This document shows, piece after piece, positions 2,116-20,763 of a stretch of DNA of 26,409 nt. The stretch covers positions 1 through 26,409 of the IMG/VR virus record IMGVR_UViG_3300009370_002315, one strand, 5' to 3'. The position numbers and the translations under genes are program-made. The notes under the pieces were generated by a model that was not told where the DNA came from, did no database searches, and saw only the letters and a program-made list of their open reading frames with translations. This DNA comes from a virus. Every line of letters starts with the position of its first letter. Positions within the stretch are counted from its first letter, which is position 1.

Positions 2116-3297
2116 TTAATCGCCAGCCCGTAGGTTCATACCCACGATAGCACGGGCGTCGAGACAGACACGACCCTCTTCCAAGAAGCCGTACCAACCC
2201 ATCTTGTCCGCGCGAGCGGCATAGAACTGATCGTCGGGGATAGCCGTAAAGGTTTCTCCTCCTTCGCCTCGAGCAACGGGTCGCACAAATGCACCCTTGC
2301 TGTTGTCGATGCCAACGATAAGGTCATCACCATCACCAAGCTCGAACTGATAGTCCGAGCCAGTGCTGCCATTAATATCAGGATACTCAGTAGTGCCAGC
2401 AAATGTACTAAATAACGTAGTATACTTTTTACCGTTACCACTAGTGTCATTACCAAATTCAAGCATTTGGTGAATGTTCACGCCGTAGATTTCCTGACTA
2501 CCAGCAGCCTTAAAGATGTCAGTTCTTACTTGATCAGGAAGATCGGTAACCGAGTTTCCAGCAGTAGAACCGCCAACCGCGTTATACGCAAAGGCTCTAA
2601 TATCGCCCACCTTTTCAGGAGACATATACAAGTCGGTGATTCCTTTGCTGTATGCAGCAGCAGGAGTACCTCCAGCATAAGACTCGTTGATACGGGCCAT
2701 ACGTTCCATGATTTCATTTAAGTCTTGCAAAGCAAATGTTTTAGAGAAACCAGCGCTAGTCCCTTCTCCAACAGAACTGAGAAAGTGCCGTAACGTAGTT
2801 CCAGCAGCAGGACTGGTCGTGGCTTCCGCCAAGGCCTTTAAGATAATAGCCCATGCATTTCTATCTTGCTTCACAACAATCTCATTCGCCATTCTTTCGA
2901 TAGCCTTGCTAACCACGTCTAAGCGAGCTTTACGAGCATAACGCTTATTCATGCTAACGGCACTATCTAAACGATAGGTCGAGATTTTAAGTTCTTGCAG
3001 ACCCTCAACATGTGAGGTGGGTAAACCACCAGCCATGTTTTGGCTCCACACCTGAATGAAGTTATCGCCTTCATTGTAATAAAGGTCTAAAGGATAGCTC
3101 GGGCTATCATCTTCATCGTAAGGTGCGTCTGAATAAATATTCGCAGCAGTAGCAGCCTGATAAATAACCTGTCTCACAACCGGTCCCAGAAAAGCTGCAA
3201 ATGCCTCCGACGCTTCTTTAGCAACAGCAGGATTTTTAGAACCCATCGCTTTGATAAGCTCTACCTGCTCGGGGGTATTTTTTAATTTTAATCTCAT
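2116..3297 (-). CDS. Major capsid protein (HK97-fold, distant gp23-like)
   Basis: A 393-aa soluble protein without signal or membrane segments, in the usual order after protease-scaffold and a decoration-like protein, and just before a strong terminator. An N-terminal helical part (about 1-50) is followed by a long charged helix region (about 110-160, DVVSKAIERMANEIVVKQDR), typical of the spine helix of HK97-fold capsid proteins, and by Gly-rich beta segments. A TAGGAG site about 10 nt before the ATG predicts strong translation. Codon use is visibly more G+C rich than in neighbours such as the tubulin or glycan genes, as expected for a very highly expressed protein. The assignment rests on context and overall pattern; I see no signature motif that fixes the exact family. 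Confidence 0.85.
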   Translation of the reverse strand: MRLKLKNTPEQVELIKAMGSKNPAVAKEASEAFAAFLGPVVRQVIYQAATAANIYSDAPYDEDDSPSYPLDLYYNEGDNFIQVWSQNMAGGLPTSHVEGLQELKISTYRLDSAVSMNKRYARKARLDVVSKAIERMANEIVVKQDRNAWAIILKALAEATTSPAAGTTLRHFLSSVGEGTSAGFSKTFALQDLNEIMERMARINESYAGGTPAAAYSKGITDLYMSPEKVGDIRAFAYNAVGGSTAGNSVTDLPDQVRTDIFKAAGSQEIYGVNIHQMLEFGNDTSGNGKKYTTLFSTFAGTTEYPDINGSTGSDYQFELGDGDDLIVGIDNSKGAFVRPVARGEGGETFTAIPDDQFYAARADKMGWYGFLEEGRVCLDARAIVGMNLRAGD

Positions 3298-3904: not shown

Positions 3905-4645
3905 CTATTGAGTAATCTCAAACTGGTCCACGTTAAAAGCTGACTTGTATTTATCATAAACAGTGGGTTCAGAAGCGTCCGTTGTGGCAGGAACAGCAGC
4001 GGTTGTTTCAACCTCTGCGTCGTCCAACACCTCATCGAGGGTTCCAGCAGCGCTTTCTTCTTCCACAGCCTCAGTTTCTACATCAGCAGCTTTAACGTCT
4101 TTTTTGAAGTCTACCTCGCCTTCTTCATCAGCGGTTTCCTTACGCTTGGGGCCTTTACCATGATGACCCTTTTTCTTGCGATCATCATCAGGGATATCAC
4201 CCTTATTGCCTCCATACTTTTGGCGACTTAAAAGAACTTCCATTTTCTTAGAATAACTATCAAAGTCTTCGTCACTCATATCTTTGATATCAGTAGCAAT
4301 GACTTGACGATGCTCATCTAAAAGTTCGTATTCTGCATCAAAGTGAGCCATCCGCTCATTAAACTTGGCCTCAGCCAATTGAGCTAGTTGTTCTGCCTTG
4401 ATGGTGTCAAGCTCCTGCTTCATTGCTTCCATTTCCTCTTTTAAACCATCATGGTCTTTAACGAGGGAGGCATGCTCTTCTTCAGCAGCTTTTAATTTAT
4501 CTTGAACTTCAGTTTGCTTCTGTGAATAACTCTCAGAAGCTTCTTGAAGTTGGTTCTCGATGAAATCCACGATGACGGAAGCCTTTAATTCTCCCGCTAC
4601 AAGAGACTCATCCTGAATATCTTGGATATTTTTAATTTTTTCCAT
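3905..4645 (-). CDS. Nested scaffold protein from internal start
   Basis: Within the protease-scaffold frame, the ATG at 4643-4645 (MEKIKNIQDIQDES) is codon 286 and lies just after the Ser/Lys linker. GGAG at 4655-4658 is 9 nt upstream, an ideal spacing and better than the signal of the full-length start. Translation from here would give a 246-aa coiled-coil scaffold without the protease. This fits the need for many scaffold copies per protease and is known from lambda-type heads. Internal initiation is inferred, not shown. Confidence 0.6.
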   Translation of the reverse strand: MEKIKNIQDIQDESLVAGELKASVIVDFIENQLQEASESYSQKQTEVQDKLKAAEEEHASLVKDHDGLKEEMEAMKQELDTIKAEQLAQLAEAKFNERMAHFDAEYELLDEHRQVIATDIKDMSDEDFDSYSKKMEVLLSRQKYGGNKGDIPDDDRKKKGHHGKGPKRKETADEEGEVDFKKDVKAADVETEAVEEESAAGTLDEVLDDAEVETTAAVPATTDASEPTVYDKYKSAFNVDQFEITQ

Positions 4646-5500
4646 AATTATATTCTCCGTCTTCTTATGATTTGTTACATTATTTTCTTTAGATTGAGAA
4701 CTGTTTTTTTCCTCAATTTGACTCTTTTCTGTACTTTTTACACTAACTTCGTTGTCCTTTTGAGTGGCGGTAGCAACCCCTTTTACATCAGCAGCGGGAG
4801 TTTCTGTTAGGCCGATACCTAAAGGTACAACATCATTTATTACCTGTCGGTAAATTGACTTACCATCTTCTGTCTGGCCCGACCCACCAAAACTTTTTAA
4901 AGAAGACTTTAATTGATCTATTTTTTCAATATCGGTTATAATTTGCGCATTTTCTAGGTTCTTTTCTTCGCCTCCTAATACCACGATATTATATTCGTTA
5001 AACCCCAGTTCCCAACTGGCGGAAATTTTCAAGTAATCATCACTCGTTGGATCACTTGAGTTTTCAATCATGTCAGTTAATTCACTATTAACTACTTTCC
5101 AGATTACACCACCTAAAGCTATATTAAAAGGCGAATTTGTATCCTTTACCTCTTCAGCAGTTAAAACTCTATCAGTACCAAATTCACTAAAACCAGCTGT
5201 TAAAATAACACCTACTACTTTTTGTCTATTGTGTTCGATATTAATAGGCTTATTAATAAAATTATTATACATGGCTAATGCCGTAGGGGTATCTACTACA
5301 TCTCCATTTTTATTAACCCTATTAGCTACACAAGCATTAAATGCCACGGGTAGTAAATCTACATCTTTCGATGTGTCAATATTAGGAATAAAATCAGCTA
5401 CCTCCATTAAACTGGCCATAGCGAGATATTTATCCTTTTCTTCTGAAACTAAAGGTTTAATTTCAGAGCTAAAAATCGTGGTATACTTGTGAGTTTTCAT
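3905..5500 (-). CDS. Prohead protease fused to capsid scaffold
   Basis: A 531-aa two-part protein. Residues 1 to about 235 look like a serine prohead protease of the gp21/S78 kind: INKPINIEHNRQKVVGVI gives the candidate catalytic His90, and YLKISASWEL gives a candidate catalytic Ser160 or Ser162. A Ser/Lys/Glu-rich linker (about 245-280) leads to a scaffold-like part: coiled coil (about 310-400), a basic patch (GHHGKGPKRK) and an acidic tail. Separate protease and scaffold genes are more usual; fusion with a nested scaffold start recalls lambda C/Nu3. No Shine-Dalgarno site is evident before the full-length ATG, whereas an internal ATG has one. It lies just upstream of the decoration-like and capsid genes. 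Confidence 0.85.
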   Translation of the reverse strand: MKTHKYTTIFSSEIKPLVSEEKDKYLAMASLMEVADFIPNIDTSKDVDLLPVAFNACVANRVNKNGDVVDTPTALAMYNNFINKPINIEHNRQKVVGVILTAGFSEFGTDRVLTAEEVKDTNSPFNIALGGVIWKVVNSELTDMIENSSDPTSDDYLKISASWELGFNEYNIVVLGGEEKNLENAQIITDIEKIDQLKSSLKSFGGSGQTEDGKSIYRQVINDVVPLGIGLTETPAADVKGVATATQKDNEVSVKSTEKSQIEEKNSSQSKENNVTNHKKTENIIMEKIKNIQDIQDESLVAGELKASVIVDFIENQLQEASESYSQKQTEVQDKLKAAEEEHASLVKDHDGLKEEMEAMKQELDTIKAEQLAQLAEAKFNERMAHFDAEYELLDEHRQVIATDIKDMSDEDFDSYSKKMEVLLSRQKYGGNKGDIPDDDRKKKGHHGKGPKRKETADEEGEVDFKKDVKAADVETEAVEEESAAGTLDEVLDDAEVETTAAVPATTDASEPTVYDKYKSAFNVDQFEITQ

Positions 5501-5670: not shown

Positions 5671-6207
5671 TTAATATCTAAAATCAAAATCTAGTTTTTG
5701 ATAATCATCAAGATATAATTCATCAACATTTTTAAAATCATAATTCAGTTCATATTTTTCAATATCAGCGCGGGCTGTAATAAAATCTTGCTCTTCAGGA
5801 AGCCACTGTTCAGTTGCATCTATTTCAGTTACAGGCACGCCCACAGCAATAATACTTGCCGAACAAGAAGCAAGGGTTTGTCTGTCTCCACTTAGCAAAC
5901 GTAAAAAAGCATTAACACGGGCCATTGCCCATTCACCATTCCCCGTTTTTAATTCGTAAGGTTGAGCGTAAACATTTCCTGCTGCTCGCCGGTACACCTT
6001 TTTTAAAGCACTTAACGATACCTGACGCTCATATTTTGAATTATGTTCTTCCATTTTTTGAGTTAACGCCTCTATTACTTTTACGGAAAATTTAATAGCT
6101 TGCTCGTCCGAGGTACCTTCAGAAGAAGCGCTAATATCTTCTTTAATCTCATCCTGATTTAAGTCAGATTGAGCAGGCTCATTTAATTCAAAATCTAGCT
6201 GGTTCAT
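5671..6207 (-). CDS. Virion-associated protein with KVY-R...W-ARV-FL module
   Basis: A 178-aa acidic protein. Residues 68-105 (LKKVYRRAAG ... EWAMARVNAFLRLL) match a short module that recurs in many phage proteins, often in structural genes, with the pattern KxVYxRG...W(A)xARVxxFL. Its function is not known. The flanks (1-45 and 135-178) are strongly acidic. As first gene of the capsid cluster, ahead of the protease-scaffold, it may be a head or neck component. There is no Shine-Dalgarno site, but a GTGTATAATT motif lies 19 nt upstream. Confidence 0.7.
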   Translation of the reverse strand: MNQLDFELNEPAQSDLNQDEIKEDISASSEGTSDEQAIKFSVKVIEALTQKMEEHNSKYERQVSLSALKKVYRRAAGNVYAQPYELKTGNGEWAMARVNAFLRLLSGDRQTLASCSASIIAVGVPVTEIDATEQWLPEEQDFITARADIEKYELNYDFKNVDELYLDDYQKLDFDFRY

Positions 6208-6213
6208 TATATA

Positions 6214-6227
6214 ATAAATTATACACC
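6214..6227 (-). promoter_or_regulatory. Putative late promoter core GGTGTATAATTT
   Basis: On the minus strand, GGTGTATAATTTATT starts 19-20 nt before the ATG at 6207, the first gene of the capsid cluster. It matches the recurrent motif of this window, and TATAAT itself is present. Predicted leader length is only a few bases. Confidence 0.5.
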
Positions 6228-6254
6228 TAAATAATAAAAAATAAATATTTTTTT

Positions 6255-6282
6255 ACAAAAAAACCACGCTTTATAAGCGTGG
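6255..6282 (-). terminator. Rho-independent terminator
   Basis: On the minus strand CCACGCT-TATA-AGCGTGG is followed directly by a run of T (6257-6263). It ends the lysis/lipoprotein operon, 28 nt past the stop of the 72-aa lipoprotein gene, and insulates it from the capsid cluster. Confidence 0.88.
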
Positions 6283-6309
6283 CCTGTGTGTTAGAATGTA
6301 ATTGTTAAA

Positions 6310-6528
6310 TTACTTCTTTTTTTCTGCTTTTGCAGTTGGCAATGGAACATCCAAATTTACCAATGGAGCCGTTACAGAAAGCCCCTTTTTACCTGCGGAC
6401 ACACCCACTAAGGCGTCTTTGTTTGCCGCACCCCCTACAGTAAGAGAAGGGAGTTTTTGAGTAACAGCACACCCCACCATAAGAGGTAGAGTAGCTCCAA
6501 CAATACTTAATTTAATGTATTTATTCAT
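6310..6528 (-). CDS. Small lipoprotein, unknown function
   Basis: A 72-aa protein with a basic start, a hydrophobic stretch and a lipobox-like LMVGC (Cys20), so it is probably exported, lipidated and held in the outer or inner membrane. The mature part is about 53 residues, Gly/Ala/Val rich with a Lys-rich end, and is not Pro-rich like classic Rz1. AAGG lies about 9 nt before the ATG. It follows the C39-like lipoprotein gene and precedes a strong terminator. A role in lysis or in changing the surface of the infected cell is possible but unproven. Confidence 0.65.
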   Translation of the reverse strand: MNKYIKLSIVGATLPLMVGCAVTQKLPSLTVGGAANKDALVGVSAGKKGLSVTAPLVNLDVPLPTAKAEKKK

Positions 6529-6579
6529 GTTAGTACCTTTTATAAGGTAGAGTCATGTTAACTGGTATTTGAAAAAGGA

Positions 6580-7080
6580 TCAAGATTTTTTTGGGTTAAT
6601 TAATAAAACCATTTTTACAATAGTTTTAGATCCATAAAAAGTCTTGATATGTGCATCTACAGGAAAACACATCCAATGATAATCTAAACCCCCTGCTTTT
6701 TTTACTAATATTATTGCTACGCTTTTTGGATGTAAGGAGTCTATATTTTTTACCTCTGTAAGAATATAACCGTGTTCTTTAAGAAAAGCTTTAATTTCAC
6801 TAGGCCACGTTATCGAACGGGCTTCTGTATCGAATAAAGCTAAAAGAGTTCTGGCAATATCCCCACCCTCTTGGATGTTATAGCTTATTTCCTTTATGGT
6901 GATATGATGATTTAGCTTTTTTAAAGCCTTATATAAAGCCTTGGGACCGCAACTATTAACATGAATAGGGTCTTTATTTATTTTGTAGAGATAACGGTTA
7001 GCTGGGGTTTCTTTTAAAGACTGTAAAATACCGCACCCTGAAAGCATCAAAATGCAAAACATTGCAATACTTTTAATCAT
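6580..7080 (-). CDS. Lipoprotein with C39-peptidase-like catalytic set
   Basis: A 166-aa protein with a type II signal: hydrophobic start and lipobox LSGC (Cys16). The mature part has the hallmarks of papain-like C39 peptidases: Cys44 in NSCGPKALYKALKK at the head of a helix, His135 in DYHWMCF, and Asp142 in PVDAHIK. C39 peptidases cut leader peptides after double glycine, and lone C39-like domains occur as lipoproteins of unknown target. The 58-aa gene upstream overlaps its start by ATGA, so translation is coupled. A phage envelope-bound protease could act in lysis, in superinfection exclusion or on host envelope proteins. The exact activity is open, and the Asn/Gln residue of the oxyanion hole cannot be fixed with certainty. 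Confidence 0.65.
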   Translation of the reverse strand: MIKSIAMFCILMLSGCGILQSLKETPANRYLYKINKDPIHVNSCGPKALYKALKKLNHHITIKEISYNIQEGGDIARTLLALFDTEARSITWPSEIKAFLKEHGYILTEVKNIDSLHPKSVAIILVKKAGGLDYHWMCFPVDAHIKTFYGSKTIVKMVLLINPKKS

Positions 7081-7253
7081 TTTACTTCTTTAAGTTTTTG
7101 TTCAAATTCCTTTTTTAAAGCTCTAATAATTAATAAACCTCTCATCGCAACTTTATGATCATGATTAGAGCCGGTGGTTTGTAACCCCTTAAAATAATTT
7201 TCCCGTCGTTTTAAAACTTCCATAATTTCATTATGAAATAAATAGTACCTCAT
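7077..7253 (-). CDS. Small charged helical protein, unknown
   Basis: A 58-aa frame from the ATG at 7251-7253 to a TGA that overlaps the ATG of the C39-like lipoprotein gene (ATGA). It starts 2 nt after the stop of the i-spanin-like gene. The product (MRYYLFHNEI ... EQKLKEVK) is rich in Lys, Arg and Glu and probably mostly helical, without a membrane segment. The tight packing on both sides supports a real gene. No function is recognised. Confidence 0.6.
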   Translation of the reverse strand: MRYYLFHNEIMEVLKRRENYFKGLQTTGSNHDHKVAMRGLLIIRALKKEFEQKLKEVK

Positions 7254-7255
7254 TT

Positions 7256-7558
7256 TTAAGCTTCGTGACGAGTTTTAGGAATAATACCATTATCTTCCAT
7301 CCATTTTTTAATGCTGTCTAACGTCTGTTTTTGATTGCGTATTATATTTTGCTGATCTTTTATTATAACCTCATAGTGCATGCGTAAAGATTTCTCTTTT
7401 AAATTAATATGATGCTGATTAATCAATTCCTTTTCGGCGCTTACAAATGTAAAAAAATGACCTACTCCAAACCCAGTTAATAAAAGAAAGATGTATAAAA
7501 AAATAAAAAATGCTTTATCCCGAAGCCATTTTAAAATATTCGTCACGAGATTTTTCAT
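7256..7558 (-). CDS. i-spanin-like membrane-anchored coiled-coil protein
   Basis: A 100-aa protein with a short basic N-terminus, one membrane segment (about 17-40, FFIFLYIFLLLTGFGVGHFF) and a periplasmic charged helix (about 42-92) with heptad character. This is the architecture of inner-membrane spanins (Rz). Spanins link inner and outer membrane and disrupt the outer membrane at lysis. Lipoprotein genes lie on both sides, which could supply the outer-membrane partner. There is no Shine-Dalgarno site; a GGTGTAATAATTT motif abuts the ATG. Other single-pass membrane proteins with a coiled coil cannot be excluded. Confidence 0.55.
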   Translation of the reverse strand: MKNLVTNILKWLRDKAFFIFLYIFLLLTGFGVGHFFTFVSAEKELINQHHINLKEKSLRMHYEVIIKDQQNIIRNQKQTLDSIKKWMEDNGIIPKTRHEA

Positions 7559-7560
7559 AT

Positions 7561-7573
7561 AAATTATTACACC
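7561..7573 (-). promoter_or_regulatory. Putative late promoter core GGTGTAATAATTT
   Basis: On the minus strand the motif ends 2 nt before the ATG at 7558, and lies just after a terminator. With T4-like spacing the transcript would begin at the ATG itself. A terminator-promoter-gene order with no room for a leader is the clearest case in the window. Confidence 0.55.
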
Positions 7574-7581
7574 ATTTTTTT

Positions 7582-7612
7582 AAAAAAAAAGAGGGAAACC
7601 TTTCGGTCTCCC
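7582..7612 (-). terminator. Rho-independent terminator of the holin operon
   Basis: On the minus strand GGGAGACC-GAAA-GGTTTCCC (8-bp stem with one G-U pair, GNRA loop) is followed by TC and nine T. It lies about 50 nt past the end of the 72-aa o-spanin-like gene. Confidence 0.9.
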
Positions 7613-7662
7613 CCTTTATGGGTGCAACGCCCGCGTGGAGCATGATGTGTTACAATTACAAT

Positions 7663-7881
7663 TTATTCTTCTTTGGGGATGCCTCCAGCATACCAACCTT
7701 CGGGGAGTTTAACCTTCTTTTTTGAAAGAACCCAAGATCCATTTTTATTTACATATACCCTGCCTGTAACATCAGGACCCAAGCGAACTAAGTCAGATTG
7801 AGTGTCTACAAAAACAACTCGAGTACTTCCGCATCCAGTGATTAAAATAGCACAACTAATTAGAATTAGAATTTTTTTCAT
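7663..7881 (-). CDS. o-spanin-like lipoprotein
   Basis: A 72-aa protein with hydrophobic start and lipobox LITGC (Cys17). The mature part has the pattern DLVRLGPDVTGRVYV ... VKLPEGWYAGG, which recurs in small lipoproteins of phage lysis cassettes. Such proteins are often listed as Rz1-like outer-membrane spanins. Its start overlaps the end of the 64-aa gene by 26 nt, and the holin lies two genes upstream, so this is one lysis operon. The actual spanin partner could be the 64-aa protein or the coiled-coil protein in the next operon. Confidence 0.65.
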   Translation of the reverse strand: MKKILILISCAILITGCGSTRVVFVDTQSDLVRLGPDVTGRVYVNKNGSWVLSKKKVKLPEGWYAGGIPKEE

Positions 7882-8050
7882 TTTCTTTTTTTTGTTCTGC
7901 CATTTTTGTTTCTTGTTCTTTTATTCTCTCCGCCCAGCTTTTTTTAATTTTCACAGGGGTTGCGTCGGCGTCTGACGCTTTGGAGTCTTTTTTTGCCTCC
8001 TCGGTCAGCCACTCTAAAACAGCCTTAATTAAAGCTGTCAACCAACCCAT
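7856..8050 (-). CDS. Lysis-cassette protein with N-terminal amphipathic helix
   Basis: A 64-aa protein: residues 1-15 (MGWLTALIKAVLEWL) form a hydrophobic/amphipathic helix, followed by a charged, Lys/Glu-rich tail likely to be helical. Its ATG overlaps the holin stop (TGATG), so translation is coupled. It could be an i-spanin-like or holin-modulating protein. No family is firmly recognised. Confidence 0.6.
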   Translation of the reverse strand: MGWLTALIKAVLEWLTEEAKKDSKASDADATPVKIKKSWAERIKEQETKMAEQKKENEKNSNSN

Positions 8051-8265
8051 CAGCCACCTTTCTTGGCAAGCCCTCTAGAAACGGTATAACCCACTGCCCC
8101 AAGGGCGGCGATTACAAAACCAAAAACTTTGTTTGCCGTACCAGCGGCGTCAGGATTCACAATATCAGCACCCCAAAGTAGAGACGCCAAAACTGTTAGA
8201 CTTGTTAGCCAGAATTCAGTAGTTTTCCAGCCCGGTTTAATATCATTTTTATTTGTATTAGCCAT
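8050..8265 (-). CDS. Holin
   Basis: A 71-aa protein with a polar start containing GWKTTEFWLT, two hydrophobic segments (about 18-34 and 46-64), a small loop between them and a basic end (GLAKKGG). The GWKTTEFWLT motif and size are typical of a widespread phage holin group. Holins collect in the inner membrane and open it at a set time. No endolysin is recognised in the window. The gene heads the lysis operon and has a TATAATAT motif next to its start but no Shine-Dalgarno site. Confidence 0.78.
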   Translation of the reverse strand: MANTNKNDIKPGWKTTEFWLTSLTVLASLLWGADIVNPDAAGTANKVFGFVIAALGAVGYTVSRGLAKKGG

Positions 8266-8268
8266 ATC

Positions 8269-8280
8269 AATATTATACTA
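8269..8280 (-). promoter_or_regulatory. Putative late promoter core TAGTATAATATT
   Basis: On the minus strand TAGTATAATATT ends 3 nt before the holin ATG, aligning base for base in position with the motif before the genes at 7558 and 17291. It would give a leaderless or nearly leaderless holin mRNA. Confidence 0.45.
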
Positions 8281-8316
8281 CATCAGCATCTTTAAAATTC
8301 AAGAAAAAAAACTTTC

Positions 8317-9528
8317 TTAATTATGTAAGTCGCCTAATTTTTTTAATTCTTCGGCCTTTTCCATTGGGAAATCTAAGCCTCCAATAGCAGTGAAAACATT
8401 AAGTGCATTTTGGTTGCCGCTATAAATACCTCTATGTACCACGCTATTGGGCTGTAACATTCTAGACAATTGATCAAATGCCTGATCTAAATACCCTTGG
8501 GGAATTGTATTAAGTTGTTCGGTACCACCAATTATAATGGCGGCAGCCGATTTTCCAGTATTTAAATTGATCCCTCCTGATAATAAATTATTTTTAAGAT
8601 TTTCCCTTACAGCCCTAGAAATACTTACTGAATTATTCCAGTCGGTAACCGGGGAAGCTCCAAACACAATTAAGCCTGAATCTAAAATAATTTTATAATC
8701 ATTAGAATCAAAGGATGAATAAGTACTGTCTTTGGCTGCTGTATGATTAAATAAATGGAATAATCCTGTCATACTTTTATTAGCGACTTCCCAGAACTCG
8801 GAAACCACTAAATTTGGATAAAGTTGACCAACTTTTTCATTATCAATTAAAATTAATGGCGAAACAATACCTTGGTCTACTAATTTCCATGTACGCTCCA
8901 GAGTTTGAAGGGCATTAGCATTAACCTTTTTACCTTCCGAGTATTTAGGTAGAGCCAATATTACACCCACTTTTTTATTAGAACCTCCTATAGCAGATTG
9001 TAATTCTACTGCTGTATTAACCAGTGGTTCTACAGAACCAGCCCCAGTTCCACCGCCCGCACCGGCACAAACAAAAACTCTATCTACAGAGTCTCCGAAA
9101 GAGGTACGCATAAAATCTAAAATATCCTCTCTCTTTTCTCTAAAAGCTTTGGCTGCAATCTCGGGGCGTTTACCAGCGCCGCCCTCTCCAAAGCATAATT
9201 TATTTGGAAGGTTGATTGTATTTAAATCCTGTTGAGCAGTATTTATAACACACGATCTTTTATATCCTAATTTATCAAAATTTTCTACAATACGAGAACC
9301 TCCTTGTCCTGCACCTACGAAGGCAAATTTAAATGCCACATCTACTGAATCTTTAATAATCTTTTTTGTATTATCTGTTTGAGGGGGAGGCATCAAAATA
9401 TCAGGCATCATAATGTCTGTAGGCTCTTCATTATAACCTACGGTTCTAATATGATTCTCTTCTTTTTGAATCTCTTCTATATGATCCTCAAGGCTGTCTT
9501 CAAGATGATTGTCTAATTCTTCATTCAT
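8317..9528 (-). CDS. Phage tubulin/FtsZ-family GTPase
   Basis: A 403-aa protein with the full GTPase core of the tubulin/FtsZ superfamily. Residues 68-80 (FAFVGAGQGGSRI) match the first nucleotide loop, INTAQQDL (95-102) the second strand region, and GAGGGTGAGS (156-165) the tubulin signature. LPKYSEGKKVNANAL (193-207) fits the FtsZ FxFEGxxR region. SSFDSNDYKII (261-271) aligns with the catalytic T7 loop, keeping two acidic residues (Asp264, Asp267) where FtsZ has NxDxxD. A 60-residue acidic N-terminal extension and a short C-terminus without the FtsZ end peptide are unusual. It starts 3 nt after the portal stop with AAGGA 10 nt upstream. Phage tubulins such as PhuZ position DNA or capsids in the cell. 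A similar role is inferred; distance from PhuZ cannot be judged by eye. Confidence 0.92.
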   Translation of the reverse strand: MNEELDNHLEDSLEDHIEEIQKEENHIRTVGYNEEPTDIMMPDILMPPPQTDNTKKIIKDSVDVAFKFAFVGAGQGGSRIVENFDKLGYKRSCVINTAQQDLNTINLPNKLCFGEGGAGKRPEIAAKAFREKREDILDFMRTSFGDSVDRVFVCAGAGGGTGAGSVEPLVNTAVELQSAIGGSNKKVGVILALPKYSEGKKVNANALQTLERTWKLVDQGIVSPLILIDNEKVGQLYPNLVVSEFWEVANKSMTGLFHLFNHTAAKDSTYSSFDSNDYKIILDSGLIVFGASPVTDWNNSVSISRAVRENLKNNLLSGGINLNTGKSAAAIIIGGTEQLNTIPQGYLDQAFDQLSRMLQPNSVVHRGIYSGNQNALNVFTAIGGLDFPMEKAEELKKLGDLHN

Positions 9529-9531
9529 AAA

Positions 9532-11598
9532 TTAATTTTCCTTTTTTAAACTGGCGGCCAAAATACTAGCTAAATAAATGTTAAGGTCATGTTCCCTAGC
9601 AAGAGACTGAACTTTTTCCACTCTTTCAGGATTATGGTCAATGGGGTTTTTACAATACTTAGCTACGGATTTAACCCAATTATCAGGCACTTCATTAATT
9701 ACGATTGTATCCGTGATCTGAGAAACAATTTCTTTTTGGGCTTTATTAAGTCTTTTTATCTTGTGTTGTTTTTTTAATTGACTACTTACTAATGGCTCTA
9801 TTTTTTGAGCCAAAATCATATTTTCTTTAACTTTGGTTAAACTGTAAGCTTCAGCATTTACGCCCTCTCCAACAGGCGTTTGCTTGGTGGTGGACTGCGG
9901 TATACCCTCAGTTCCATGAGGGCGTCCAGCTTCGTTAGGTATATTTTTATTTTCTTCGATTTCTTCGACTTTTTCTACCTCTTCTTTCTTAGAGGTTTTT
10001 TTATCTTCTTCTACAATTTTTATAGGGGCATTACCACCGCCCCCCATTAATGGAGAATAAAGCCCCTCATTTTTTTGCTCCATAAATTCTTTTTGTGACT
10101 CTAAAGATGCTTCTTTATCAGGTAGCCTACCGCTTTCAATAGCCGTGAAAGTTTCTTGAGGTGTAAGAACCCCAAGTTCTAATAACCGGGAATATACACG
10201 ATCCTTGAGAACGCTATCCTGAAGAGACATTTCTTCAAAATAAGGGGTGGGAAAATTTTTAAACCCAAGTTGTTTTGAAAGTTTTTTAATTTCAGGTATC
10301 AAAAAGTTATTCAAGAATGATTGGCGCCCTTGTTGTAAACGAGCCACAAAAACTTTAACCTTGCTTTCTTGATTAGAAAACTTTTCTCCACCAACTAAAA
10401 TATTGTTTAAACCATTATTTATATCCCTTTCAAATACCTCGTATTTTTTGGGGTCCATTAATTCACCAATGCCCGGCACCACAAATTCTGCTTTCGTAGT
10501 ATAGTCTGCAATTAGTACTCGACCAACAGATTCATTTTGAAATAGCTCTTGCATGGCCTGAAGATTTCGTTGGTTTATCCCACCTTTTTCTGGGTCAGTA
10601 CCCATTGTTACTAATAAAATTGCTTGCTGCATGGTCCTTGCGATTGCCATGTCCATTTTTTTTAATTCATCTTTAAAATTTATATCAGAGAGAACAGGGT
10701 AACCCATTGGAACTGCAAAAGGCTCGTAATCTTGTTTTTTATAAAACACCCCTAAAACCTTATCTATCGGCAATGGAATTCGAACCGCTGCATTTCTGTG
10801 TTCTTTTATTAATTTTTTAGTTTGACTATCAAGAGCATCGAACATTTCCTTATCTTGCTCTGTCCGAGGGTCTTTTAATCTTTGAAGCTCATAATTAGAA
10901 ACCATTTTGTAATAAACCGGGTTATTAAATGATAAAGTACCCGTCATTCTAATATCGGCAGGATTTAATAAAATGTATTCAGTTGGAATTTTTAACTGTT
11001 CAGACGCATTGCTAAGTCCACGTTTAGCCCCAAAGGTTTGAGTAATTTTTTTTATGTCTTCAGGGGTAACTTTGGCATTAAAACGATAAATGAATACATT
11101 ACCAGAACGATAATATTCTCTAAAAAATTTATCTTGAAAATCCCAAATATTCAACCTATCCAATAAAGCTTCGAAAAATTTTCTAGATTTTTTACTCCCC
11201 CCTTTAAAATAAATAGACCCAATAGAAAATTCGGTCATAAGGTCTATTACATTTCTAAAGGTGGCAAAATTGTAATATGCCTTTTGACATAAAATAACAG
11301 CATCTCTTACATCCAAAGAATTAGCTGAAGCCAAACCATATTCAGTCGTATACCTAAAGGGCACAAGACCGTCATCAATGTTTTTGTATTTATCTGTTCT
11401 CTCTATATTAGCAGCCCTATTTCGTCTGTTAGAGGTAACATTGGTATTAATAGAGGCTATTGACTCTTGGTAGGCCATAAGCGGAGTAACCTCATCATCA
11501 GGCGACTTAGTGGAAGCACTTGCCGTAGCGGTGCTTTTTGATGCAGAAGCCTTATTTTTGGCGGCTCTTTTACGGGGCTTTTTGGCCGGGGTGCTCAT
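9532..11598 (-). CDS. Portal protein
   Basis: A 688-aa protein following TerL, the usual place of the portal gene. The core (about 60-500) has the mixed alpha/beta look of T4 gp20-type portals, with YRSGNVFIYRF, a long stretch of helices around 310-360, and a GLNNILVGGEKFSNQ region near 420. The N-terminal 40 residues are basic, Ala/Ser rich and probably disordered. A Lys/Glu linker (about 540-570) and the motif EAGRPHGTEG, common near the end of portal proteins, are followed by about 110 further residues forming a separate helical domain. Portals form a dodecamer at one capsid vertex through which DNA enters. T4 gp20 is about 520 aa, so the extra length is mostly the C-terminal part. Confidence 0.85.
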   Translation of the reverse strand: MSTPAKKPRKRAAKNKASASKSTATASASTKSPDDEVTPLMAYQESIASINTNVTSNRRNRAANIERTDKYKNIDDGLVPFRYTTEYGLASANSLDVRDAVILCQKAYYNFATFRNVIDLMTEFSIGSIYFKGGSKKSRKFFEALLDRLNIWDFQDKFFREYYRSGNVFIYRFNAKVTPEDIKKITQTFGAKRGLSNASEQLKIPTEYILLNPADIRMTGTLSFNNPVYYKMVSNYELQRLKDPRTEQDKEMFDALDSQTKKLIKEHRNAAVRIPLPIDKVLGVFYKKQDYEPFAVPMGYPVLSDINFKDELKKMDMAIARTMQQAILLVTMGTDPEKGGINQRNLQAMQELFQNESVGRVLIADYTTKAEFVVPGIGELMDPKKYEVFERDINNGLNNILVGGEKFSNQESKVKVFVARLQQGRQSFLNNFLIPEIKKLSKQLGFKNFPTPYFEEMSLQDSVLKDRVYSRLLELGVLTPQETFTAIESGRLPDKEASLESQKEFMEQKNEGLYSPLMGGGGNAPIKIVEEDKKTSKKEEVEKVEEIEENKNIPNEAGRPHGTEGIPQSTTKQTPVGEGVNAEAYSLTKVKENMILAQKIEPLVSSQLKKQHKIKRLNKAQKEIVSQITDTIVINEVPDNWVKSVAKYCKNPIDHNPERVEKVQSLAREHDLNIYLASILAASLKKEN

Positions 11599-11614
11599 AA
11601 TTGTAAATATTTAA

Positions 11615-11627
11615 TTAATATTACACC
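11615..11627 (-). promoter_or_regulatory. Putative late promoter core GGTGTAATATTAA
   Basis: On the minus strand GGTGTAATATTAA lies 28 nt before the portal ATG, overlapping the gap after the TerL stop. Here a leader of roughly 15 nt would remain, longer than at the other sites. Confidence 0.42.
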
Positions 11628-11629
11628 TT

Positions 11630-13462
11630 TTAACCGAACATTTGTGGTATAAAGGTAGAATTTGTTTCATTTTCTTTTAAGTTTACCATATCATAATAAC
11701 ACTTTACACCCCAGTTTGCCAGCATAAGAGTAGTATAATTATCTTTTCGTGCCCGATTGGCGCTTGTAGAGCGTTTTAAATGTTGAGGAAGATCAAATGT
11801 TTGGGTTCCCTTGGCTGTACTTTTTACTTCAACTAAGGCGCATTGTTTTTTGGTCTGGTAAACTAATGCGTCTTGCGCTTCGATAAAATCACTTATGTTG
11901 TTTTCATTAATTAATTTAAAATTAACGGGTAACGCCGCCTGTTTATCAAACGAAACACCATGGGCTGTTGTACGAGAAGCAAACCATATCTTTTTATGAT
12001 CAATAGAAGCCTGTAAGTGTTCGTTAGACTTTCTTAAAAAATCACTTGTAAAATTTTGTTTAAAACAAATTTTTCCATCTCCTTTATTATAATTTCTTTT
12101 TAAGGCTCTTATTTGTTTTTGATAATCTACCCCCTCTAGATGACTAGTAAAATCTAAAAATTTAAGATTAATTTGTTTACTTAAAAAATTCTCTGATTCA
12201 TTGGCACTATCTAAAAACTGGTAACCGGCATTATCAATAACAACCATATGAATGTCAAAATTTATCATTAGATAATACAAATAATTAATATGATCCTTGA
12301 GATTTCCTCCTGCAACCGCATAGCTATGAACCAGTGTGCTCTGTTGCGCCTCCTCATCTAATTCAAGTAATGACATAGCAAAATAGTCTGAACTGGGGCT
12401 GTTACTAAAACTTGGATCAATTCCTAAAATATATTTTGCACCTTTACGCCCCTGTATGAGTGTAGTTGGATTTTCTCCATCTGGTATAGTACATTCATGC
12501 ATTTTTTTGGCGCTAAAATAGCTGTCACTTCCGTCAGTAAATTGAGCGCAATATTCTCGTAAAAATGAAGAATGAGATGCGCCACCGTCTTGAGCTTCTT
12601 CAATTACAGTTTTATCAATCATTTCTACAGGGAGAGACTCATAGCTCATCTGAGAGATAAAATATTTACTGTCTGACTCTTCAGGTGAATAAATTTTCTG
12701 CGCCCACTCTTTATAGGTTTTAAATAAATTTTCAAATGTATAAGAGGCTGAAGATAAAGCAATCATTTTAGAATTGTTTTCAAAAACCATTCTGTCTTCT
12801 TCTTTCATTTTTCCTGCCGCTATCAAGGAATCTTCTTTACCTCTAATAGCTAACCTTTCTTTCATGTCTTGTGGGGCTACCAAAAATGGCATTAAAACTG
12901 TTTTAATTATATCTTCAGGCAATAAAAGAAACTCGTCCAAGAGCAAAATATTAGCCCTAAAACCACGAATCTTCTCACCGTTCAAAGGAATGGCTGTAAT
13001 AGTGCCGCCGTTAATAGACCACTCAAACTGATCGTTTCTCTTTGATGGTTTTGTTGCAAATGCTTGCATTAAAAGTTGGCTATCTTTGGATGCCACTATT
13101 TTTTCTAAATTATTAAATATAAATCTTGCGGTTCTAAATGTAGGTCCCGCAATTAATATTTTTGTACCGGGGTTAAAAATACACTGTAAAAAACAAAAGA
13201 CTGAGGCTATAAAAGTTTTACCGCAACCACGCCCCCATACACACATAGAAAAATTTCTATTCATCATGGCCTTAAGTGTTATCTCTTGAAAAGGGGCTAA
13301 CTTAATTCCCGATAACATCTCAGTTGTGAAGGCTAAATTTGAATTCAAAAACTTTGCTAAAGTTATTTTTGCCTCCTTGTCGTCCAGAATTCCTTCTAAT
13401 TTTAATAATTCTTTATTGACATCGGGTATATTACCCTTGTATTTGTCAGGACAATACCACAT
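11630..13462 (-). CDS. Terminase large subunit (DNA packaging ATPase-nuclease)
   Basis: A 610-aa protein with both terminase domains. ATPase: Walker A-like WGRGCGKT (76-83), Walker B ILLLDE (172-177) and coupling motif SSAS (237-240). RNase H-like nuclease: GIDPSFS with Asp349 and MVVIDNAG with Asp410 as likely metal ligands, plus later acidic residues. The length equals T4 gp17 (610 aa). It cuts concatemeric DNA and drives it into the prohead through the portal, whose gene is next. The start has AAAGGA 8 nt upstream and overlaps the stop of the ERCC4 nuclease gene by one base (TAATG). Confidence 0.95.
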   Translation of the reverse strand: MWYCPDKYKGNIPDVNKELLKLEGILDDKEAKITLAKFLNSNLAFTTEMLSGIKLAPFQEITLKAMMNRNFSMCVWGRGCGKTFIASVFCFLQCIFNPGTKILIAGPTFRTARFIFNNLEKIVASKDSQLLMQAFATKPSKRNDQFEWSINGGTITAIPLNGEKIRGFRANILLLDEFLLLPEDIIKTVLMPFLVAPQDMKERLAIRGKEDSLIAAGKMKEEDRMVFENNSKMIALSSASYTFENLFKTYKEWAQKIYSPEESDSKYFISQMSYESLPVEMIDKTVIEEAQDGGASHSSFLREYCAQFTDGSDSYFSAKKMHECTIPDGENPTTLIQGRKGAKYILGIDPSFSNSPSSDYFAMSLLELDEEAQQSTLVHSYAVAGGNLKDHINYLYYLMINFDIHMVVIDNAGYQFLDSANESENFLSKQINLKFLDFTSHLEGVDYQKQIRALKRNYNKGDGKICFKQNFTSDFLRKSNEHLQASIDHKKIWFASRTTAHGVSFDKQAALPVNFKLINENNISDFIEAQDALVYQTKKQCALVEVKSTAKGTQTFDLPQHLKRSTSANRARKDNYTTLMLANWGVKCYYDMVNLKENETNSTFIPQMFG

Positions 13463-14397
13463 TATAGAATTCCTTTATCATATGCTAATTGAAGGTCGAT
13501 TTTTTTATAAATACATTTAGATAAAAATATTTTTTCACTCACCCTTACAGACTCCTTGCGACCCTTAACAAACAAAAATTGAACATGAGAATAAGCTTGT
13601 ATAATTTTTCTAACATTATGAAATATAAACTCGGGTGTAGCTTTTATCTTTTTAGAAATATAAGGTAAATAAGGAAAACTTAAAGCATTGGCTAATGTAT
13701 CTTCCACTAGAACAACAAGGTAAGCGTCTTGAGCTTTAGCACGCTCTATTTCCCGACAAAACCTTTCGTAATTGAGAGTGCTTAAAGTAGAAATAAAGTC
13801 GGATAAAGATTTTCTTTCTATATAACAATTACAAGTTAAGTCTTTATCATTTAATGTATAATCTCCAAATTTTAACCCATGAGATTCATAAGGTATATTA
13901 AATTTAAGGGGGTCTTTTTCCCTAGTATCTATATATATTTTATGCTCCTCTTTTAACGAGGCTGTAGCCTCTACCTTTGAACAAGGTTCATATTTATTAT
14001 CAAACCCTAAATGTAAACACGTTTTATAATAGTCACCTAATATTTTTTCAAATGTTAAAATAGAAGGAGTCATTAAAGTTCTTAATTCTACTTGACATGG
14101 AGAAAATTTTAATTTTTTTTCCTTTTTGCGCTTAATAAGAAGATTTGTTAAATATTCTTTAGCCTCTGAAGGGGGCTGCTTTTCAAGCCACTTTCTTTGG
14201 TTAAGGCGCGTATTAAAATCATTGGAAAAATAATAATTTTTAGATTTGAATTTTATTATTTTATTATCAAATAAATCATATCTTGGATAATATTTTTGAT
14301 AATAAGAAGTCACTCGTAATCCATGGGCTTTAAAATGACCATGTAATTGGCGCTCTGTATCAAATTCCTTATCGCACGCTTTGCATTTAAAACTCAT
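13462..14397 (-). CDS. C2H2 zinc finger - ERCC4-type nuclease
   Basis: A 311-aa protein from the ATG at 14395-14397; a TTG five codons earlier is an alternative. The N-terminus is a canonical C2H2 zinc finger (Cys5-x2-Cys8-x12-His21-x3-His25) followed by YYQKYYPRYDLF. The second half is an ERCC4 domain as in XPF/MUS81: IDTREKDP (about 156-163), FGDYTL (about 177-182) and the catalytic signature IERKSLSDF (about 193-201). These enzymes cut branched DNA such as flaps and junctions. Overlap with the sulfotransferase gene upstream and with TerL downstream places it in the packaging operon. Clearing branches from replicating DNA before packaging, as T4 gp49 does, is a reasonable inference. Confidence 0.85.
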   Translation of the reverse strand: MSFKCKACDKEFDTERQLHGHFKAHGLRVTSYYQKYYPRYDLFDNKIIKFKSKNYYFSNDFNTRLNQRKWLEKQPPSEAKEYLTNLLIKRKKEKKLKFSPCQVELRTLMTPSILTFEKILGDYYKTCLHLGFDNKYEPCSKVEATASLKEEHKIYIDTREKDPLKFNIPYESHGLKFGDYTLNDKDLTCNCYIERKSLSDFISTLSTLNYERFCREIERAKAQDAYLVVLVEDTLANALSFPYLPYISKKIKATPEFIFHNVRKIIQAYSHVQFLFVKGRKESVRVSEKIFLSKCIYKKIDLQLAYDKGIL

Positions 14398-15115
14398 AAT
14401 CAAAAAATTCAATATCTTCTGAATAAACCTCTTTAATTATCTCCTGCGTCTTTTTGGTATAAAAACGTCTGTAATTAGGCTTATTAAAAATATGACCTAC
14501 AACTGGCACTTTTTTACCTGAATGTTTTATTTGTTTAAAAAGCTTAGATATATCTTTGGGAAAATTTTCGTATTTACCGATAAAATCTAAATTAATTTCT
14601 CCATTTTTATTTTTAAGCCATTCTACTTGGGGCATTATCCATTTTCCAGTTAATCTATTTTGGCGATTAACATGGATGTTAACATCAGATAAGTTTAAAT
14701 TATTATTTAATTGAGAGGGTAAAGATTCTACAAATGCAGCAAAGGAGTTTTTAAATTTCAAATAAAATTTTTTATTTATATGAATGCTTTCGGGTGAGCT
14801 CATAATTTTTTTACCCTTGTCCCATGCCTGCACAGGATTTTTACTATTGCAATAAATCCCTTGATCAGCCATATCTTGATAATAAATAATGTCTGCATGT
14901 GACCAAAGATACCACGAGACAATACGATCCCAAGGGTTTCTCACAAACGAAAACTTAAAATAAGAATTAAAAGATTGTTTATCTAAATATTCCTTAAAAG
15001 TCTTATGTTGAGCCATCACCGCCTTACCCCTCGGGACACTAAGTGATTTTTCAATTGCCGTACCTGCTGTGCGCGGTATATGAACAAATAAAAGTTTTTT
15101 ATTTTTTATTATCAT
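14387..15115 (-). CDS. Sulfotransferase family protein
   Basis: A 242-aa protein with the two PAPS-binding signatures: FVHIPRTAGTAIEKSL (10-25, 5'-phosphosulfate loop) and FSFVRNPWDRIVSWY (55-69, 3'-phosphate loop). The end, RRFYTKKTQEIIKEVYSEDI, is typical of carbohydrate sulfotransferases of the Sulfotransfer_2 kind. These move sulfate from PAPS to sugars or proteins. It lies between a 364-aa unknown and the ERCC4 nuclease, starting directly after the previous stop, so it is expressed with the packaging genes and not with the glycan cluster. The substrate is unknown; a virion glycan or host surface polysaccharide is possible. Confidence 0.85.
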   Translation of the reverse strand: MIIKNKKLLFVHIPRTAGTAIEKSLSVPRGKAVMAQHKTFKEYLDKQSFNSYFKFSFVRNPWDRIVSWYLWSHADIIYYQDMADQGIYCNSKNPVQAWDKGKKIMSSPESIHINKKFYLKFKNSFAAFVESLPSQLNNNLNLSDVNIHVNRQNRLTGKWIMPQVEWLKNKNGEINLDFIGKYENFPKDISKLFKQIKHSGKKVPVVGHIFNKPNYRRFYTKKTQEIIKEVYSEDIEFFDYEF

Positions 15116-16210
15116 TTAATTTAAAATTTCTTCTTCGGAAACACCCAATATACGAGCCTTAATTTCTTCCATTGAAGACAAATTATCAACCTCTTCTTTT
15201 AGAGTTTCTTTACGTAGTTCAGCAAGATGAATCATTTTCTTACGGGATTCTTCATTTTTCCACATCTCCACAAGGTTTAAAATGCTAGCATTTTCTTTTA
15301 ATTGACTTTTAAGGCGATCACTTCTTTTTTCTTTTAAATCATTAAGTAATTTTTGCTGGCGGTTAACACACTGATTGTATTCGTTTTGAGATGTACTTAT
15401 AGCTTCCACCAAAGACATTGCAATACGTTGTCCTCCCGCACTCTGTTCTAAAGCCGCCTCATCTAGTAACCGTTGAAGATGTTCAACCCTGCGCTGAATA
15501 TTAGAAGCAATTACAACCTCAATAGCTAATACAATATATTGGTCTATTTCTTCTTGGGTTAAATCATGTTTATCATAAGTATAACGAACGAAGCTTGATT
15601 CAAATAAATCTCTCTCCGATGGCCCTTCATAGGTATTAATTTGGTGCAAAAATCTATAGGTATTTATATAGCCTAAAAATGAAGAGACTTGTTTTTTTTG
15701 AATGGGTGATATCTTGCCTTTATCTATAGGCACAGGAATATATTGATTTATTTTTAATAATGCCTTATCAAATGTTTTAGGGGGCTTATATTGTTCATGT
15801 ATTATATTTATTTCACTTACTGTATTATGGTCTGGGTCAATGCTTTTAATGTAATCGTCAACAACTTTAGCCTCTTTATTTAAATTTGTAATTTTTTCAT
15901 CAGCAAAAAGAACGCGAGCGATTTCTACAAAAGTCATCATTTTATAATTATTATCGATGAACTCTTTATTTTCGCTTGTAAGCTCAATTGATTTTACCGC
16001 TTGATACTCATGAGCCGCGCGAGCTTTTATTTCTCGTGTAGCTAAAAATTCCTTTACAGCACGCCCCTCTTTACTTCGTCCATCTACGGTCATATCAGGA
16101 AAAGTGATTTTTATAAGCTCTAATAAAGATGGTGGGTTATTGGGTCTAGAATTCCACTCTTTAATAATGTTATCTTTTTGTTCTTCAGATAAAGAAATAT
16201 TGGCACTCAT
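15116..16210 (-). CDS. Unknown 364-aa helical protein of the packaging operon
   Basis: A soluble, largely helical protein. The first 100 residues contain two short repeats (SEEQKDNIIKEW / TSENKEFIDNNY followed by LLELIKITF / FVEIARVLF) that look like duplicated helix-turn-helix-like units. The C-terminal third (about 255-350) is Lys/Glu rich with coiled-coil character. GAGGTGG is 9 nt upstream of the ATG, and the start overlaps the sigma gene stop (ATGA). Its place between sigma factor and terminase, with DNA-binding-like repeats and a coiled coil, is where a small terminase could sit, but I cannot recognise the family. Confidence 0.7.
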   Translation of the reverse strand: MSANISLSEEQKDNIIKEWNSRPNNPPSLLELIKITFPDMTVDGRSKEGRAVKEFLATREIKARAAHEYQAVKSIELTSENKEFIDNNYKMMTFVEIARVLFADEKITNLNKEAKVVDDYIKSIDPDHNTVSEINIIHEQYKPPKTFDKALLKINQYIPVPIDKGKISPIQKKQVSSFLGYINTYRFLHQINTYEGPSERDLFESSFVRYTYDKHDLTQEEIDQYIVLAIEVVIASNIQRRVEHLQRLLDEAALEQSAGGQRIAMSLVEAISTSQNEYNQCVNRQQKLLNDLKEKRSDRLKSQLKENASILNLVEMWKNEESRKKMIHLAELRKETLKEEVDNLSSMEEIKARILGVSEEEILN

Positions 16211-16905
16211 ATAATGTCCACCTCTCCTTTTTCAATTGTTTTTTTTACTTTTTCTACAATAGATTTTTTTATATTTTTTATCTGCTTATAGCCCGGCGGC
16301 CGTCCTTGTTCCGATGTAGTATAATTCATAATATCAGCCACCTCTTTTTCATTTTTATTTTCTATATATAAATATTTATATATGGTCCATTCTAATGGCT
16401 TTAATTTATTCTTCATTGCTTCATGCAATTTAGATGCGTTCCTTTCAAAATTTTCATGAGCACAAGTAAGGTGAGAAAGCTCATGTCCATGATATTCTAA
16501 TGAAAGCGGTACCTTTAAGTCATGAGCGTCTTTTTTGTGTCTTTCCCAATTTTTGTATAACGGACATTCACTGCATTGGACTCCATAAATCACGCACCCC
16601 TCAGGCTCTTCTGCTGCCGCGCACTTTAAACAAGGTCGCGTAAAATTTCCATAGTTATTCCTAACCAAATTTTTAATTTGATTAGAAATTATTCTATTCA
16701 ACCATGGAGCCAAGGGCTTCTCAGGGTCATAAAGGTGCCATTTTTTAAAAATGTGTAATTTTATAATTTGAGAAATATCATCAAAGTCCATCCATGCCAA
16801 TGATTTTAAATTCCATTTACCACGGCGTTTTTGAATTTCTTGATCAATTATATTAATACATTTTTCAAAAGAAGGCTTTTTAATTTGTTTCTTCTTTTCA
16901 GACAA
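16207..16905 (-). CDS. Late sigma factor, gp55-like, with Cys-rich insertion
   Basis: A 232-aa protein with a sigma-70 region-2-like segment (about 38-85): MDFDDISQIIKLHIFKKW, then WLNRIISNQIKNLVRNNY. This is followed by an insertion with CLKC...C...CSEC (about 92-115) that may bind zinc. A region-4-like C-terminal part (about 165-225) has LEWTIYKYLYIENKNEKEVA and a basic helix. T4 gp55 is a similarly small sigma that reads TATAAATA. The start is taken as TTG at 16903-16905, since no ATG occurs before the region-2 segment; ATT just upstream is possible. It directly follows a zinc-ribbon gene. It probably recruits host RNA polymerase to the GTGTAATAAT-like sites in this window. Confidence 0.72.
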   Translation of the reverse strand: MSEKKKQIKKPSFEKCINIIDQEIQKRRGKWNLKSLAWMDFDDISQIIKLHIFKKWHLYDPEKPLAPWLNRIISNQIKNLVRNNYGNFTRPCLKCAAAEEPEGCVIYGVQCSECPLYKNWERHKKDAHDLKVPLSLEYHGHELSHLTCAHENFERNASKLHEAMKNKLKPLEWTIYKYLYIENKNEKEVADIMNYTTSEQGRPPGYKQIKNIKKSIVEKVKKTIEKGEVDII

Positions 16906-18877: not shown

Positions 18878-19822
18878 TTATTCAGCATCAAAGAAAAACA
18901 TATGAAATAAACGCCCGCTTTCTTTTGTGTCTCCAAAATACTCTGACGCTGCATGAACTAGACTGGCATCCCATATTGCCATTCTATTATAAACATTACC
19001 TATTACATCTACAGTTTCCCATGGTGTTTTATCATAAAAGTTTCCTTTAAACATTTCCCAGTATAATTCATCTATAGTTTTATTCAACCTTTCACAATCT
19101 TCTAAAGAAGGTTTTTTTCTTAAACCATTATTTTTGTGTTTAAAAAATGAAGTTCCTGCTTCGGCAGGTGCATTAGGTGTTAAGAATACCACTGCTGCAT
19201 AAGTTTGAGAATCAGTATGGTAAACCAATTGGTCTTCGGCTATACAATATTGAAAAACTCCATTATGAGGTTGGTTGTCCCAACTGGTAATTTTTTTCTT
19301 AAGGGTATCTTCTAAAAATTCTTGAGTGCCATTAAAAAATGTTCTTTCTTTAGTTCTTCTTCCTTTATGGTATTTTTTATTATAATTAAAATCCAAAGAC
19401 AAGGCATACTCTCTTACGGCGTCAGGGTCACTATAAAAGTCATCTACAGCCACTATACTTGGGTGACTATTACCAATTTTACCTATCTCGGATAAATCCT
19501 TTGGTTTTTTCAAGTCAGCTATTTTAAAAAACTCATCTTTAAACTTAACTAAAAGCTCAAGATCATTTTTAGAATTTTCTAGGTTATCTTCAACCTCCAA
19601 GTTAAAACCCACAAATGCGGTAGGTGTATTTGGATAAGCTTTTAAAACATCTTTTCTTTCGATAAAATCAACAGAAGGCGCTAAACTTTTTCCCGCTCTT
19701 ATAGTAACCTGTTGGATGAGTTCTTTTTCATGAAGAACCCACCCTGAAAAAGCATAGCCTTTTGATGTTTTTTTAGATACATCTATATGAAACTTCACAA
19801 ATGGAACTAATGAATCATGCAT
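18878..19822 (-). CDS. 2OG-Fe(II) oxygenase-like protein (DUF6445-like)
   Basis: A 314-aa protein in two parts. The first 110 residues are a beta-rich domain (KGYAFSGWVLHEK). The second half has the iron-binding pattern of 2-oxoglutarate oxygenases: His202 and Asp204 in VYHTDSQTYAAVVFLTP, distal His290 in SLVHAASEYFG, and Arg304 in GRLFHMFF for 2OG binding. This resembles the DUF6445 group found beside sugar-biosynthesis and glycosyltransferase genes. It ends the glycan operon, overlapping RmlB by 8 nt. It may hydroxylate a sugar, amino acid or protein; the substrate cannot be read from the sequence. Confidence 0.75.
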   Translation of the reverse strand: MHDSLVPFVKFHIDVSKKTSKGYAFSGWVLHEKELIQQVTIRAGKSLAPSVDFIERKDVLKAYPNTPTAFVGFNLEVEDNLENSKNDLELLVKFKDEFFKIADLKKPKDLSEIGKIGNSHPSIVAVDDFYSDPDAVREYALSLDFNYNKKYHKGRRTKERTFFNGTQEFLEDTLKKKITSWDNQPHNGVFQYCIAEDQLVYHTDSQTYAAVVFLTPNAPAEAGTSFFKHKNNGLRKKPSLEDCERLNKTIDELYWEMFKGNFYDKTPWETVDVIGNVYNRMAIWDASLVHAASEYFGDTKESGRLFHMFFFDAE

Positions 19823-20762: not shown

Positions 20763-20763
20763 T

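Follow-up and report, generated by a model that had tools for sequence, protein, structure and literature searches.

Many uncultured bacterial viruses encode a tubulin of their own by the portal gene, which suggests that a filament helps to assemble or fill the heads of phages lying outside the giant nucleus-forming group. The example from which we start is a single stretch of viral DNA of 26,409 nt (the window), a 26.4-kb virus record that is probably a fragment. The known phage cytoskeletons are PhuZ, from nucleus-forming jumbo phages, and TubZ of c-st, from plasmid-like prophages; searches of the open-access literature turned up both and no account of a tubulin family linked to the portal. 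Judged by profiles and trees, the portal-linked tubulins are a separate new family, one that many uncultured phages, apparently of siphovirus type, possess, that is inherited with the portal, and that has been re-acquired beside it. The family adds a branch to the tubulins, one whose N-terminal arm is still unstudied, and a setting in which a filament's part in head assembly or filling can be tested without a confounding nucleus.

The Tubulin Gene and Its GTPase Site

The 403-aa ORF (Table 1) matches the Pfam Tubulin family (PF00091, 1.7e-13, above the cut-off) and, in phmmer searches, the structures of FtsZ, TubZ, and CetZ (best 6e-16). A sequence-only reading of the window had called it a tubulin/FtsZ-family GTPase that starts 3 nt after the portal gene and carries a T1 loop, a GAGGGTGAGS signature, and an acidic T7-like segment; the ATG does lie 3 nt past the portal stop, with AAGGA 10 nt 5' of it, and all of the loops and both T7 acids are present, including T5 (E198) and T6 (D229-N230). 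Across 46 nonredundant relatives, the invariant residues are G72, G74-G77, and R79 of T1; N96 and T97 of T2; G116-K120 of T3; G156, G158-G160, G162, and G164 of T4; E198 of T5; D229 and N230 of T6; and D274 and D277 of T7. The loop residues that vary are A73, S78, A157, T161, A163, and S165. The T4 signature pattern is found in 109 of 112 family members and the acidic T7 pattern in all 112; through D274 and D277, each subunit would supply the missing part of its neighbor's GTPase site. Between the window tubulin and its nearest relative, dN/dS is about 0.03 (TerL is alike, and dS is saturated), and the gene evolves under purifying selection.

Table 1. Positions in the window of the tubulin gene, its motifs, and its neighbors
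Feature	Position	Strand	Basis
Putative major capsid protein (tentative label)	2116..3297	-	Position, sequence reading, conserved synteny; no library match
Putative prohead protease/scaffold (tentative label)	3905..5500	-	Position, sequence reading, conserved synteny; no library match
Possible intrinsic terminator, 13-bp stem and T run	7588..7617	-	Consensus match only
71-aa membrane protein, holin-like (weak, PHROG holin E 0.003)	8050..8265	-	Neighbor only in some relatives
Phage tubulin (TubZ/FtsZ-superfamily GTPase), 403 aa	8317..9528	-	ATG start; Pfam, structure matches, conservation, model
T7 loop and start of H8, D274 and D277, residues 265-278	8695..8736	-	
T4 tubulin signature GAGGGTGAGS, residues 156-165	9034..9063	-	Conserved in alignment, family-wide pattern
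T1 nucleotide loop GAGQGGSRI, residues 72-80	9289..9315	-	Conserved in alignment
N-terminal motif DIMMPDILMP, residues 38-47, in acidic low-confidence tail; family hallmark	9388..9417	-	Family conservation
Portal protein, 688 aa	9532..11598	-	PHROG and PDB profile matches of family
Terminase large subunit (TerL), 610 aa	11630..13462	-	Clear library matches
Zinc finger and ERCC4-type nuclease, just upstream of terminase, conserved	13462..14412	-	Library matches, synteny

An AlphaFold2 model built with the alignment of 46 relatives has a pLDDT of 85 and a pTM of 0.82, with the H7 helix at residues 242-264 and residues 1-36 below 50. The fold is that of a tubulin, and the GTP site is intact. When this confident model was searched with Foldseek, the top matches were FtsZ, which leads by E-value, and TubZ, which leads by coverage and by TM-score (on query length, 0.71-0.72 over the full length for TubZ vs. 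about 0.61 for FtsZ). At the other end, the chain stops about 17 residues beyond the last strand.

An Acidic N-Terminal Arm

Ahead of the core lies an extension of 65 aa, with 18 D/E and 5 K/R, much as had been read from the sequence (an acidic stretch of some 60 residues). Such tails are acidic throughout the family (at the median, a net charge of -10 and a length of 49), and all but 3 of the 111 distinct members (108, vs. 2.7 expected in shuffles) have a PDIPxP-type motif there, the pattern having been defined only after part of the family had been inspected. The motif ends 15-23 residues ahead of the first strand, a fixed spacing to the core, and among the proteins of the relatives scanned, no other has it.

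Relation to Known Tubulins

Where do these proteins belong among the tubulins? A tree of 30 rows recovers the phage sequences as a single clade (100/99), gives that clade plasmid TubZ as its sister group (96/94), and places FtsZ, CetZ, and PhuZ elsewhere; AU tests keep the alternatives that join the phage clade to FtsZ (p 0.11), to CetZ (p 0.22), or to PhuZ (p 0.43). A tree of 45 rows keeps the wide family united (97/96, with L262 outside) and does not settle its sister group, TubZ included. Set against the PDB, the family profile matches TubZ/RepX at 9e-23, FtsZ at 6.5e-15, CetZ at 8.6e-15, and PhuZ at 2.6e-11, so that TubZ is nearest by profile as well as by structure, and PhuZ, with which the protein had at first been compared, is not its closest relative.

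TubZ (RepX/TubZ of Bacillus plasmids and TubZ of the Clostridium phage c-st) gives the best PDB profile match and the best full-length TM-score, shares an F-D-x-x-D/E pattern in T7, and aligns end to end, but identity is about 20-26%, and the long C-terminal tail of TubZ is absent from the phage protein. Unlike TubZ, the phage tubulin has the acidic PDIPxP arm and a location in the head module, and no TubR gene or tandem array was found nearby. PhuZ is also a tubulin GTPase encoded by a lytic-type phage and a precedent for the movement of capsids, but its sequence is distant, it sits on a long separate branch, its gene order is different, and no chimallin was found in 11 contigs here. CetZ shares the fold and, along with TubZ, the D-N of T6, but its profile match is weaker and its clade separate.

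FtsZ shares the fold, the GTP loops, and the T7 acids; against this, identity in structure alignments is about 22%, the phage proteins form a phage-only clade, and the C-terminal linker and FtsA/ZipA-binding peptide of FtsZ are absent. The window tubulin scores 73.4 bits against the FtsZ model TIGR00065, whose cut-off is 295.2. In cellular genomes, a first, narrower tubulin profile found no match, and a broader one found, among the matches listed, only genes at 22-31% identity, including what we take from the organisms to be TubZ-like genes of Bacillota and archaeal genes of FtsZ/CetZ type. Because there is no near cellular relative and the FtsZ score is so far under its cut-off, sequence comparison firmly indicates that the phage tubulin is not a recent copy of a host FtsZ; what the trees and the loci give instead is a separate phage clade with conserved synteny.

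These comparisons bear on the idea that the viral tubulin poisons or replaces host FtsZ, giving larger cells before lysis. Homology to FtsZ makes the idea thinkable, since co-assembly of relatives is conceivable, but the protein is far from FtsZ, it lacks the FtsZ-type C-terminal peptide, its gene is located in the late head module, and it keeps every catalytic residue, which an inhibitor would not need. We regard this explanation as very improbable; interference with host division had been raised from the sequence, and nothing in our analysis speaks for it.

Two database entries need a word. The sole INPHARED match of the tubulin, MT837522, groups with real FtsZ and was put aside. The best viral structure match, UniProt A0A6J5RW92 from an uncultured Caudovirales phage (E 2e-33, 28% identity), is perhaps a distant member of the family, its name (“FtsZ Cell division GTPase”) being automatic annotation only.

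The Portal Gene and the Kind of Phage

That the gene ahead of the tubulin encodes a portal had been read from the sequence, and the profiles bear this out. By itself, the window protein has no informative library family match; of the 56 members of its family, 27 match one PHROG portal family (best 1e-7), 2 match another (up to 1.2e-11), and the best PDB match of the family profile is SPbeta YonE (E 0.01). By these matches of its relatives, the gene is a true portal gene. An AlphaFold model of the portal made from seven sequences reached a pLDDT of only 42 and was set aside, so that identity rests on the profiles.

The possible terminator may close a unit made up of the portal, the tubulin, and the small genes; terminator consensus matches in the region number 6, with 4.9 expected. 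Promoter matches are no commoner than chance, and Rfam gave nothing.

The phage had been described as T4-like. No contractile tail sheath occurs in any of 15 lineage contigs, which are fragments (the T4-like contig G010, as a control, was positive); the longest lineage contig, G001 (116 kb), encodes a siphovirus-type tape measure of about 6040 aa in one ORF; and the window TerL is nearest to those of siphoviruses, such as SPbeta and Slash. These three findings are, therefore, evidence against a T4-like phage, and in its genes, the window phage looks like a siphovirus. Other hallmarks were sought as well: chimallin was absent from 11 fragmentary contigs, with three nucleus-forming phages positive as controls, and no match turned up for the thermosome/chaperonin family, which is a hallmark of the viruses that infect Marine Group II archaea. 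The tape measure ORF runs through L091:12847-20000 and L092:1-10960 (G001 72847-90960; PhageMin_Tail 4.5e-33), and its counterpart in G037 has 4643 aa. At 1.5 angstroms of tail length per tape measure residue, the tail of G001 would come to about 0.9 micrometer, among the longest known.

Association with the Portal

At loci fetched by the tubulin, the order is ERCC4 nuclease, TerL, portal, tubulin, and then genes of capsid type. A survey of portal–tubulin pairs in related phages finds their synteny conserved: in the window's lineage, the tubulin directly follows the portal in 65 of 76 distinct genes, lies 1-3 ORFs from it in 10, and is elsewhere in just 1 (L011). The genes downstream are of several kinds (70-aa holin-like proteins, 145-aa or 260-aa membrane proteins, and 200-aa soluble proteins); the tubulin's tie is, therefore, with the portal, whereas the holin, which had been thought part of the arrangement, is not a conserved neighbor. 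A protein family of about 400-440 aa (L090:1234-2541 and L149:4076-5269, beginning MARNRV.YQ or similar) lies between portal and tubulin or takes the place of the tubulin. G001 also carries a distant paralogue of it (24% identity, 9e-35), which precedes the tape measure, so that a role for the family in the tail tube or in head completion is possible.

Loci fetched by TerL, which are a less biased sample than those fetched by the tubulin itself, have the tubulin in 31 of 37 decisive cases; the other 6 have the region without it, and a further 42 loci end too early. The contigs that lack the tubulin at this place, which are fragments, do not have it elsewhere. Presence and absence require 2 changes on a TerL tree of 73 phages and 3 on a portal tree, and with so few changes, the tubulin is best seen as ancestral to the window's lineage and lost two or three times within it. 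Some close relatives do without it, and it is, therefore, not essential in all. Over 55 phages, pairwise identities of the tubulin correlate with those of the portal (r 0.93) and of TerL (r 0.83). At three loci (L250-252), the portals are nested in the window's portal clade, and the tubulin, which lies between TerL and the portal, is a divergent one from another subclade (grouping with L255-257); we, therefore, think that a second, divergent tubulin was placed on the portal's other side.

Might the protein act at the portal as a GTPase that forms no filament—a timing factor in head assembly, for instance, or a minor head protein at the portal vertex? The tight adjacency of the genes fits this explanation, and the conserved N-terminal motif could be a docking peptide. 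The invariant T7 acids, however, have a use only if subunits complete each other's sites, and no portal columns separate tubulin-bearing from tubulin-less phages, so that no signature in the portal co-varies with the tubulin. We think such a role improbable, and the portal sequences give no support to direct portal binding.

The Wider Family and the Question of Function

The family numbers at least 112 distinct sequences. With the broader profile, the matches listed include members from other phage lineages that reach 38-60% identity, on contigs of up to 203 kb, where the neighbors of the tubulin are UvsX and DnaB (L256), UvsX (L258), a Clp-type ATPase (L247), GTP cyclohydrolase (L237), or, in a T4-like contig, a gp32-like gene (L011). 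A protein shared by L232 and L261 near the tubulin is portal-like by eye but lacks library backing and is not counted.

Our preferred reading, held tentatively and at a little under an even chance, is that a phage-specific tubulin forms a late cytomotive filament that serves head morphogenesis or genome packaging. Late in infection, the protein would bind GTP and polymerize head to tail, and hydrolysis would follow once a subunit's T7 loop reached the nucleotide bound by its neighbor. Such a filament would most likely move or gather procapsids (or capsid and terminase–DNA complexes) in the manner of PhuZ and without a phage nucleus, and the PDIPxP arm might contact the cargo or a partner or else link subunits. 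The treadmilling of PhuZ, which transports capsids (PMC7950403), is both precedent and model for this reading. Polymerization, timing, cargo, and the work of the arm are all things that we infer, and the gene order and recurrent association with the portal strengthen the proposal of a late filament. On the other side, genes that lie together have a common history and common expression but need not have a common function, no portal residue tells phages with the tubulin from those that lack it, the gene is dispensable in some close relatives, and some family members adjoin replication genes (L256, L258, and L011).

Those members within replication modules speak for the chief rival explanation, a TubZ-like one in which what the filament positions or segregates is phage DNA under replication rather than capsids, and in which the gene is in the head module merely through late expression. 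Plasmid TubZ is, after all, the nearest solved relative by profile and fold, and the smaller tree makes it the sister group, a placement that the wider tree unsettles. The companions of such a system, however, do not appear. A TubR was sought by phmmer in the window and three relatives without a match, this being a weak probe for a divergent TubR (some of the four TubRs used fail to match one another); in four annotated TubZ plasmids, the gene immediately upstream of TubZ encodes 100-120 aa, and an ORF of that size precedes RepX in L186. No centromere-like tandem array occurs in window positions 6200-14500 (8.3 kb around the tubulin), no integrase was found in 16 lineage contigs (which are fragmentary), and the C-terminal tail of TubZ is missing. 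We judge this explanation unlikely, although likelier than the other alternatives to our preferred reading.

The filament in head assembly or packaging can also be stated more broadly, as a third class of phage tubulin that occurs across many uncultured lineages, is defined by its PDIPxP arm, and would form GTP-driven filaments dedicated to capsid assembly or packaging at the portal, in phages that are neither nucleus forming nor jumbo phages of the phiKZ type. This larger claim is possible and, in our estimation, rather doubtful.

Other Genes

Several further genes were seen along the way. The ERCC4-type nuclease with its zinc finger (13462-14412) precedes TerL in nearly all relatives and is perhaps linked to packaging. 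Also conserved upstream of TerL is a small protein with a sigma-70 region 2 (window 16207-16905), a candidate late sigma factor. Genes of the dTDP-sugar type (nucleotidyl transferase, dehydratase/epimerase, and RmlD-like) stand beside DUF6445 and PhoH at window 19815-22480 as a possible glycosylation cassette, and window 1-1158 encodes a collagen-like GxQG repeat protein that is open at the window edge. Elsewhere, the tubulin contigs L011 (G010) and L237 carry QueC-, QueE-, and QueD-like genes (by reading) and a GTP cyclohydrolase (PHROG 3.6e-61), a gene set that suggests 7-deazaguanine DNA modification, and near the divergent tubulin of the viral contig L261 lies a 616-aa SET-domain protein (10129-11976; 2.5e-7).
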